Shown here: piece by piece, positions 52,320 to 55,554 of the stretch
Position numbering within the stretch: position 1 is the first letter of the stretch
Layout of the letters: every line of letters starts with the position of its first letter
Assembly (NCBI GenBank): GCA_019635285.1
Contig: JAHBZS010000010.1
Span: 1-64,000 of the forward strand
Direction: 5' to 3'
From: Rubrivivax sp.
GTDB lineage: Bacteria; Pseudomonadota; Gammaproteobacteria; Burkholderiales; Burkholderiaceae_C
Length of the DNA: 64,000 nt
The notes under the pieces: model-generated
Database searches by the model: none
Told to the model about the DNA's origin: nothing
Seen by the model: the letters and a program-made list of their open reading frames with translations, nothing else
Position numbers and translations under genes: made by a program

Positions 52320-52856
52320 CTACTTCTGCGACTTCTGCCAGCTCTCCATGCCGGTCCTGACTTCGGCGCGGGCGGCGTCCGGGCCTTCCCAGCCCTTGAT
52401 CTTGACCCACTTGCCGGGCTCCAGGTCCTTGTAGTGCTCGAAGAAGTGCTGGATGGTCTTCAGCCGCAACGGGTTCAGGTCCTCGGGCTTCTTCCACTGC
52501 GAATAGATCGACAGGATGCGGTCGATGGGCACCGCCAGCAGCTTGGCATCGCCGCCGGCCTCGTCGTCCATCATCAGCACGCCCAGCGGCCTGCAGGTCA
52601 CGACCACGCCGGGAATCAGCGGCACCGGCGTGACCACCAGCACGTCCACCGGGTCGCCATCGTCGGCCAAGGTGTTGGGGATGTAGCCGTAGTTGCACGG
52701 GTAGTGCATCGACGTGCTCATGAAGCGGTCGACGAACAGCGCCCCCGAGTCGTGGTCGACCTCGTATTTGATGGGGTCGGCGTTCATCGGGATCTCGATG
52801 ATCACGTTGAACTCGTCCGGCGCGTTCGCGCCTGGGGTGACGTTGTGCAGGCTCAT
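52320..52856 (-). CDS. ppa: Inorganic pyrophosphatase, soluble family I
   Basis: 178 residues. It hydrolyses cytosolic pyrophosphate. Active-site features include [14 protein letters not shown] (about 21-34), the signature [10 protein letters not shown] (about 65-74, metal-binding Asp) and [25 protein letters not shown]. The start at 52856 fits the family; the frame stays open to 52961. It is divergent from a membrane pyrophosphatase across 241 bases. Confidence 0.97.
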
Positions 52857-53097: not shown

Positions 53098-55554
53098 TTG
53101 ATCTCCACCTCCATGGCGCTGAACATAGCGCTGCTTTGCGGCCTGGCGGCCGTGCTCTACGGCTTCATCCAGCGCAGCTGGATCCTGAAGCAGGACGCGG
53201 GCAACGCCCGCATGCAGGAGATCGCCGGCGCGATCCAGCAGGGCGCCGCGGCCTACCTGGCGCGTCAGTACAAGACCATCGCCATCGTCGGCGTGGTCCT
53301 GGCCATCCTCATCGCGGTCTTCCTGGACGTGACCAGCGCCATCGGCTTCGTGCTCGGCGCGGTGCTGTCCGGCGCTTGCGGCTTCATCGGCATGAACGTG
53401 TCGGTGCGCGCCAACGTGCGCACCGCGCAGGCCGCCACCAAGGGCATCGGCCCGGCGCTGGACGTGGCCTTCAAGGGCGGCGCCATCACCGGCATGCTGG
53501 TGGTGGGCCTGGGCCTGCTGGGCGTGGGCATCTTCTTCTGGTGGCTGGTCGGCGGCGCGCCGGCCGACGCCAAGTTCTCGGCCGTACTCAAGCCGCTGCT
53601 GGGCTTCGCCTTCGGCTCGAGCCTGATCTCGATCTTCGCGCGCCTGGGCGGCGGCATCTTCACCAAGGGCGCCGACGTCGGTGCCGACCTGGTGGGCAAG
53701 GTCGAGGCCGGCATCCCCGAGGATGACCCGCGCAATCCGGCGGTCATCGCCGACAACGTGGGCGACAACGTCGGCGACTGCGCCGGCATGGCGGCCGACC
53801 TGTTCGAGACCTACGCGGTGACGATCATCGCCACCATGTCGCTGGGCGCGCTGGTGGTCAGCGGCGCCGCGGTGCAGGCCGCGGTCTACCCGCTGCTGCT
53901 GGGCGGCGTGTCGATCATCGCGTCGATCATCGGCTGCTACTTCGTCAAGGCCAGCCCGGGCATGAAGAACGTGATGCCGGCGCTGTACAAGGGCCTGGCC
54001 GTCGCCGGCGTGCTGTCGCTGATCGCCTTCTACTTCGTGACCACGATGGTCATGCCGGCCGACGCGCTGGGCGCGGGCACGCACATGCGGCTGTTCGGCG
54101 CCTGCGCCGTCGGCCTGGTGCTGACCGCCGCGCTGGTGTGGATCACCGAGTACTACACCGGCACGCAGTACAAGCCGGTGCAGCACATCGCGCAGGCCTC
54201 GACCACCGGCCACGGCACCAACATCATCGCCGGCCTGGGCGTGTCGATGCGTTCCACCGCCTGGCCGGTGATCTTCGTGTGCATCGCCATCATGGTGTCC
54301 TACGGCCTGGCCGGGCTGTTCGGCATCGCCGTGGCCGCCACCTCGATGCTGAGCATGGCCGGCATCGTCGTCGCGCTCGACGCTTACGGCCCGGTCACCG
54401 ACAACGCCGGCGGCATCGCCGAGATGTCGGAGCTGCCCGACAGCGTGCGCGACATCACCGACCCGCTGGACGCGGTGGGCAACACCACCAAGGCGGTGAC
54501 CAAGGGCTACGCCATCGGCTCGGCCGGCCTGGCCGCGCTGGTGCTGTTCGCCGACTACACGCACTCGCTCGAAGCGCGCGGCATGACCTTGAGCTTCGAC
54601 CTGAGCGACCCGAAGGTCATCGTCGGCCTGTTCATCGGCGGCCTGATCCCCTACCTCTTCGGCGCGATGGCCATGGAAGCCGTCGGCCGCGCCGCCGGCT
54701 CGGTAGTGGTCGAGGTGCGGCGCCAGTTCCGCGAGATCAAGGGCATCATGGAAGGCAAGGCCAAGCCCGAATACGGCACGGCCGTCGACATGCTGACCAA
54801 GGCGGCGATCAAGGAAATGATGATCCCGTCGCTGCTGCCGGTGATCGTGCCCATCGTCGTCGGCCTGTTGCTCGGCCCGGCGGCGCTGGGCGGCCTGCTG
54901 ATGGGCACCATCGTCACCGGCCTGTTCGTGGCCATCTCCATGTGCACCGGCGGCGGTGCCTGGGACAACGCCAAGAAGTACATCGAAGACGGCCACCACG
55001 GCGGCAAGGGCAGCGAGACGCACAAGGCCGCCGTCACCGGCGACACCGTCGGCGACCCCTACAAGGACACCGCCGGCCCGGCCGTCAACCCGCTGATCAA
55101 GATCATCAACATCGTGGCGCTGCTGATCGTGCCGCTGCTGCCGGTGGTGTCCAACACCACGGCCGCGCACGCCAGCGCCGCGCCGGCGGTGGCCGTGGTG
55201 GCGGTGCCGGTGATCGTCGAAGTGGCGCGCATCCAGGTCGTCGAACCCGGCCTGGTGAAGTTCTACTTCGAGTCCGGCAAGGCCGACCTGGCCGGCGGCG
55301 CCGCCGAGGCGCTGGTCGACGTGGGCAAGGGCGTGGCCGCGGGCAAGAAGGCCGTCATCAGCGGCTTCCACGATGCCACCGGCGACCCGGCCATCAATGC
55401 CGAACTGGCCAAGCAGCGCGCGCTGAATGTCGCCGCCACGCTCAAGCAGATCGGCGTGCCCGACGACAAGATCGAGCTGAAGAAGCCCGAGCAGCTGACC
55501 GGCAGCGGCCCGAACGCCGAGGCGCGCCGCGTCGAGGTCCGGCTGGTGGAATAG
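53098..55554 (+). CDS. hppA: H+-translocating membrane pyrophosphatase with C-terminal OmpA-like domain
   Basis: 818 residues from TTG, with GGAAGG about eight bases upstream (ATG at 53113 is the alternative). Residues 1 to about 690 are a 16-helix M-PPase with [25 protein letters not shown] in pieces, [20 protein letters not shown] and a second metal site ending [18 protein letters not shown]. Lys465 in [10 protein letters not shown] marks the K+-independent, proton-pumping class. Residues about 710-818 resemble an OmpA_C domain: [39 protein letters not shown] and ARRVEVRL. Typical enzymes stop near 690. M-PPase C-termini face the periplasm, so the extra domain could contact peptidoglycan. 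Confidence 0.93.

Follow-up and report, generated by a model that had tools for sequence, protein, structure and literature searches.

A membrane pyrophosphatase with an OmpA-like tail in Rubrivivax, and relatives of the tail on other energy-converting membrane proteins

The fusion gene and its OmpA-like tail

The DNA analysed here is a stretch of 64,000 nucleotides from a contig of Rubrivivax sp., referred to below as the window. It contains a gene that joins a membrane pyrophosphatase (M-PPase, hppA) to an OmpA-like C-terminal module, with a gene for a soluble pyrophosphatase next to it (Table 1). A GGAAGG stretch lies 5' of the TTG at position 53098 taken as translation start, and the homologues in the alignment begin at about the same point as the window protein. 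The H_PPase domain is full length by Pfam, covering profile positions 2–645 of 645. Residues K465 and T468, in GNTTKAVT, are invariant in 23 aligned fusions and match the Lys and Thr at the K+ site, which we take to be the mark of K+-independent H+-PPases; the best solved relative, 8b37, is named a K(+)-insensitive proton pump. Judged by its sequence, the gene product is probably a K+-independent proton-pumping pyrophosphatase. The NCBIfam name "sodium-translocating" given to it is a family label and no evidence for Na+ transport.

A sequence-only reading of the gene had described a complete M-PPase followed by an OmpA_C-like tail, and the open reading frame, the pump and the three landmarks of the tail were all found. 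The fusion recurs in genomes of the same genus and in other families, which rules out an assembly accident. The soluble pyrophosphatase gene lies upstream of hppA in 81 of 121 loci, and in all 81 the two genes are on opposite strands; hppA carries an OmpA-type end in 53 of these loci and lacks one in 28.

Table 1. Features of the fusion locus, in window positions
Feature	Position	Strand	Description
Soluble family I pyrophosphatase gene	52320..52856	-	PF00719, E 4.7e-57; head-to-head with hppA
hppA-OmpA fusion gene	53098..55554	+	818 aa open reading frame, TTG start
Membrane pyrophosphatase domain	53146..55128	+	residues 17-677; PF03030, E 1.9e-277
Linker after the last helix	55144..55254	+	about 37 residues, Ala/Val/Pro-rich; predicted disordered
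OmpA-like module	55255..55551	+	residues 720-818; Pfam match, fold order, purifying selection
Asp759 codon	55372..55374	+	matches Asp of the diaminopimelate-binding pair; aligns with YiaD Asp
Arg774 codon	55417..55419	+	partner of Asp759; aligns with YiaD Arg

The OmpA-like character of the tail was borne out both by comparison with PF00691 and by structure prediction. The Pfam match spans residues 723–794 (55264–55479) with E 8.3e-9 and 36.1 bits, above the curated cut-off of 27.2. A profile built from 39 fused tails, here called the tail profile, recovered 54 distinct solved sequences at E ≤ 0.001 with YiaD at the top (E 1.9e-12), and the NCBIfam equivalog cut-off (YiaD/Pal/OmpA) was not reached by the tail, the best model being YiaD with 33.5 against 175 bits. 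An AlphaFold2 model made with 23 sequences has a whole-model mean pLDDT of 66.5 and a pTM of 0.66, the pump region being partly poor; within residues 711–818 the block means of pLDDT are 65–89. Strands are modelled at 712–716, 719–723, 751–758, 792–794 and 811–817, and helices at 735–747, 764–784 and, a short one, 806–810. The predicted order of the tail, strand-helix-strand-helix-strand-(short helix)-strand, fits the beta-alpha-beta-alpha-beta-beta fold of OmpA. The tail resembles the OmpA C-terminal/Pal/YiaD family (PF00691) in this order, in its pattern of Asp, Arg and Asn residues and in its RRVEV-type end, but it lacks a barrel or lipoprotein part, has G-[FY]-[HT]-D in place of G-H-T-D and has, by eye, a shorter last loop.

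In the same model the linker (685–710) has pLDDT below 50 and no helix. Among 75 distinct fused linkers the median length is 36 residues (range 18–73) and the median content of Ala and Pro is 50%; we estimate that a linker of median length, if fully extended, could reach roughly 100 angstroms. Ten close pairs of fusion genes yielded dN/dS values of 0.014–0.40 for the module, well below 1 in all ten, and 0.09–0.45 for the linker; the pump body gave 0.010–0.174 in nine pairs, the tenth being not computable. Together with the AlphaFold2 model, these values indicate that the tail folds as a domain under selection and hangs on a loose linker.

Distribution and descent of the module

The pump was detected in 225 of 299 genomes of the family sample (E ≤ 1e-60), and the module was present somewhere in 155 of the 299. 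Among the matches listed, about 53 genomes of this sample have the module in an open frame of 810–955 residues and one more has it at a contig end, where the figure of about 53 is an approximate hand count with frames taken by length and ten of them inspected for long or odd linkers. Eight of these ten proved to be plain pump fusions. Of the other two, L273 in genome G080 contains an assembly gap, and L271 was labelled a pump in one assignment although the short test motif is missing from it. Module-bearing pumps occur in Variovorax, Rhodoferax, Polaromonas, Piscinibacter and Pseudorhodoferax, and further in Xenophilus, Candidatus Accumulibacter, Lysobacter and Pseudoxanthomonas. A match at E 1e-14 was present in 19 of 370 class-sample genomes and 34 of 397 phylum-sample genomes. 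Beyond the order, scores are mostly below 100 bits, with one short fragment reaching 121 (G1066); strong matches come from two genomes of family f61, one of 141 bits in a frame of 897 residues and one of 162 bits in a frame of 868.

A set of 156 hppA rows, enriched for tails and with some genomes counted twice, divides into 102 with the module, 31 with an Ala/Pro-rich linker only, 17 without a tail and 6 unclassed. Rows of the linker-only and tail-less kinds are common, so the tail is dispensable; it is best explained as an optional accessory outside the pumping cycle. A quick tree of 116 pump bodies calls for 21 changes of the module label, gains and losses counted together, at least 17 of them forced by well-supported branches. 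A profile search for relics 3' of hppA, taken as far as E 1, came up empty for the 31 linker-only and 17 tail-less genes and likewise for the 100 module-bearing genes of a comparison set; the relic search therefore does not separate gain from loss. One linker-only pump (L277 in G129) ends in a stretch similar to the beginning of the module, followed by a stop codon, and the profile search downstream of it found nothing convincing (best E 0.25). Its sequence suggests a tail cut short by module loss. A trade-off between fused and free modules was considered and rejected: by hand count among the matches listed, 40 of 54 pump-fusion genomes have a further match, and 101 of the 245 others have the module.

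The module is not confined to pumps. The tail profile marked 91 places in 63 of 399 order-sample genomes (a hand count among the matches listed), and 69 of the 91 were inspected for the fusion partner, which was called by signature motifs and then confirmed by Pfam on representatives. Besides pumps and one-helix proteins, the 69 comprised 10 COX2-cytochrome c proteins, 7 PufC, 4 CcoP, 5 DUF937 proteins, 2 RND adaptors and 1 ammonium transporter (Amt). With 10 COX2, 7 PufC and 4 CcoP, 21 of these 29 partners are, as a raw count, electron-transport subunits. Pfam confirmed COX2 for L093 and L257; CcoP for L090, L092, L244 and L248; PufC for L097, L099 and L104; Amt for L095; an RND adaptor for L101; and DUF937 for L089, L198 and L031. 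The family sample adds CcoO (L249) and a membrane cytochrome c (L239), again by Pfam. The COX2 partner belongs to the aa3 oxidase and CcoP and CcoO to the cbb3 oxidase, and PufC is the photosynthetic reaction-centre cytochrome.

The module also occurs free-standing, with one membrane helix in front. The window's own genome has a second copy of this kind on contig 45 (L102; 4561–5118, minus strand), in a one-helix protein of 185 aa whose neighbours resemble gyrB and queC as named by eye. Two one-helix proteins (L252, L254) contain two tandem module-like stretches, the first apparently degenerate; in L252 Pfam recognises the second only. In genus g54 a free module gene (L258/L259) lies near a module-bearing pump gene on the opposite strand, at a distance of about 1 kb in G260 and about 4 kb in G186.

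The genome of the window has 11 PF00691 matches, two of which are the module copies. A tree of 120 domains sets 113 module rows off (support 100/99) from 7 other OmpA-type domains of this genome, 2 of its 9 other matches having been left out; the separation is partly built in, because it was the tail profile that selected the module rows. The pump label requires 10 changes on this tree, at least 4 of them forced, and a single clade of pump-borne modules was rejected by the AU test (p = 0.0215), even though a pump-labelled module that groups with PufC modules (L141) was left out of the clade, a choice that favoured one clade. This evidence is moderate because the domain offers only 100 kept columns, and the tree is only partly resolved. 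In family f45 the modules of CcoP and DUF937 proteins are joined at 100/100.

We compared 34 within-genome pairs of modules on different partners. In five of them (G045, G312, G584, G607 and G675) the two modules resembled each other more than they resembled modules borne by the same kind of partner in another genus; in the other 29 they were not closer than both same-partner comparisons. The CcoP and pump modules of G312 are 77% identical, against 64 and 68% in the same-partner comparisons. The corresponding values are 64% against 56 and 44% for the pump and PufC modules of G675, and 84% against 81% for the pump and cytochrome c modules of G045. Sequence comparison in these five pairs fits within-genome copying on a few occasions.

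Side of the membrane, candidate ligand site and possible roles

The C-terminus of M-PPase is periplasmic by established topology, as are the C-termini of COX2, CcoP, CcoO and PufC and the N-terminus of Amt. The module is C-terminal on the first five of these partners, whereas on Amt it follows a signal-like start at the N-terminus. Amt is the instructive case, since there the module sits at the other terminus and again at the periplasmic end. This argument covers M-PPase, COX2, CcoP, CcoO, PufC and Amt, with DUF937 proteins and RND adaptors standing outside it. No linker was more hydrophobic than that of the window protein (KD19 2.15; 12 of 85 linker rows have KD19 ≥ 1.6, and 3 of these are copies of the window gene), so that an extra membrane pass, and hence a cytoplasmic domain, is conceivable. 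Against such a pass stand the prolines and a Glu in the linker, the AlphaFold2 model and the less hydrophobic linkers of relatives. We infer that the tail is periplasmic, provided that the linker is no membrane helix.

In A. baumannii OmpA, D271 and R286 bind diaminopimelate, according to a passage of PMC6572160. The spacing of Asp759 and Arg774 is 15, the same as in this pair. We gathered 195 distinct domain sequences at a tail-profile E ≤ 1e-12, of which 14 are class-survey rows with ordinary OmpA-type proteins among them. Arg774 is kept in 195, Asn767 in 194 and Asp759 in 188; without the 14 class-survey rows the counts are 181/181, 180/181 and 174/181. Pump-borne modules keep the Asp in 100 of 102 cases, and of the seven domains in which it is missing, two sit on pumps and three on PufC. 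The PufC modules L099, L106 and L107, close relatives of one another, have Ser in place of the Asp and retain the Arg; their ligand may have been lost or changed. Two positions before the Asp, F or Y replaces the usual His in 190 of the 195 domains (181 of 181 without the class-survey rows), and the next position is H in 114 of the 195. The sequence-only reading had taken the change from GHTD to GFHD as a peculiarity that might alter binding. With F or Y as the rule and the known Asp/Arg pair retained, GFHD is a habit of the family, and we reject it as a special ligand site.

These observations lead us to favour, as the probable explanation, a portable periplasmic tether to peptidoglycan, formed by the OmpA-like module on a linker at the C-terminus of the pump. 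In this mechanism the periplasmic C-terminus would carry, on a flexible linker, an OmpA-like domain from a portable subfamily, and the domain would most likely bind the diaminopimelate stem peptides of peptidoglycan via Asp759 and Arg774. Such putative binding would tether the pump to the wall, limit its diffusion and perhaps fix how far the inner membrane lies from the wall. Modules closely related to this domain appear to have been grafted onto the periplasmic ends of terminal oxidases, a photosynthetic cytochrome and a transporter, and they also exist as one-helix membrane proteins. Our preferred guess for the purpose of tethering a pyrophosphatase is restricted diffusion or clustering of pumps. 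The wall anchoring proposed in the sequence-only reading keeps its footing in the sequence, the predicted fold and the conserved Asp/Arg pair, with binding still putative.

It is also possible, if unlikely, that the module docks a protein rather than the wall, and that a shared periplasmic or outer-membrane partner, or dimerisation between modules, gathers pumps, oxidases and cytochromes. Some genomes do have closely similar modules on different energy-converting proteins, up to 84% identical, and the seven domains without the wall-binding Asp have nevertheless been kept. Dimerisation of OmpA through its C-terminus is also reported in a passage of PMC6572160. The near-universal Arg774, Asn767 and Asp759, in contrast, fit a classical ligand site. 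A further reading, which we regard as rather improbable, makes the tail a near-neutral addition that spread by domain shuffling and does little for the pump. The tail's patchy distribution with at least 17 forced changes, the apparently cut-down module start of L277 and the many linker-only tails would agree with such an origin, but the low dN/dS of the module in every pair and the conserved binding-pair residues speak against it, and repeated grafting onto periplasmic ends would be unexpected by chance. Regulation of the pump by a domain that senses wall strain or the periplasmic state is very improbable: it would draw on analogy with stator proteins such as MotB only, no evidence emerged for the sensing of wall or PPi state that the sequence-only reading had suggested, a predicted disordered linker of such variable length would make a poor signal rod, and an allosteric rule shared among partners with unrelated mechanisms is unlikely.

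The tether reading has relatives among known systems. In the stators MotB/PomB and in TssL of the T6SS, an OmpA-like domain ties an inner-membrane protein to the wall. The proposed pump tether would share this combination of an inner-membrane protein and an OmpA-like domain; in those systems, unlike M-PPase, the tether supplies mechanical counterforce, and we know of nothing in M-PPase chemistry that requires one. The tail profile also matches residues 756–831 of 872, at the C-terminus of PsaB, in the photosystem I structure 7f4v, presumably that of Gloeobacter. This is a precedent for an OmpA-like end on another energy-converting membrane protein, with a different partner. Wall binding has reportedly been proposed for this end of PsaB; we found no paper with this proposal in the open-licence literature.

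An M-PPase with an OmpA-like C-terminal extension has already been reported from Paucibacter sp. KCTC 42545 in a PeerJ 2024 review (PMC11210485), which in the passage concerned states that the role of the extension "remains to be elucidated". Table 2 of the review also has an 818-aa betaproteobacterial protein, and the legend of its Fig. S4 touches on the extension. As described there, the Paucibacter protein has the same architecture as the window protein, and those passages mention no binding residues, gain/loss tree or other fusion partners. In search results from the open-licence literature we recognised no description of the pump-OmpA fusion beyond this review and none of the module on oxidases or PufC; some papers among those results name both OmpA and PufC. 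The bare fusion is known in print; the wider family of partners did not appear in those search results.

On a broader scale, and more tentatively, we speculate that Burkholderiales and some Lysobacteraceae may share a mobile wall tether that has been copied within genomes between inner-membrane energy machines and that would organise the bioenergetic membrane. These machines would be the proton-pumping pyrophosphatase, the aa3 and cbb3 oxidases, the photosynthetic cytochrome, cytochrome c and the ammonium channel, and what fixes the complexes under the wall would be their attachment to peptidoglycan, in place of supercomplexes or membrane curvature. The tether idea is directly testable, since natural tail-less relatives and single-residue changes provide the controls. 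If the module binds the wall, one interchangeable part would fix respiratory, photosynthetic and PPi-driven pumps under the peptidoglycan, which, if true, would be an unusual organisation of energy conversion in the Gram-negative envelope.
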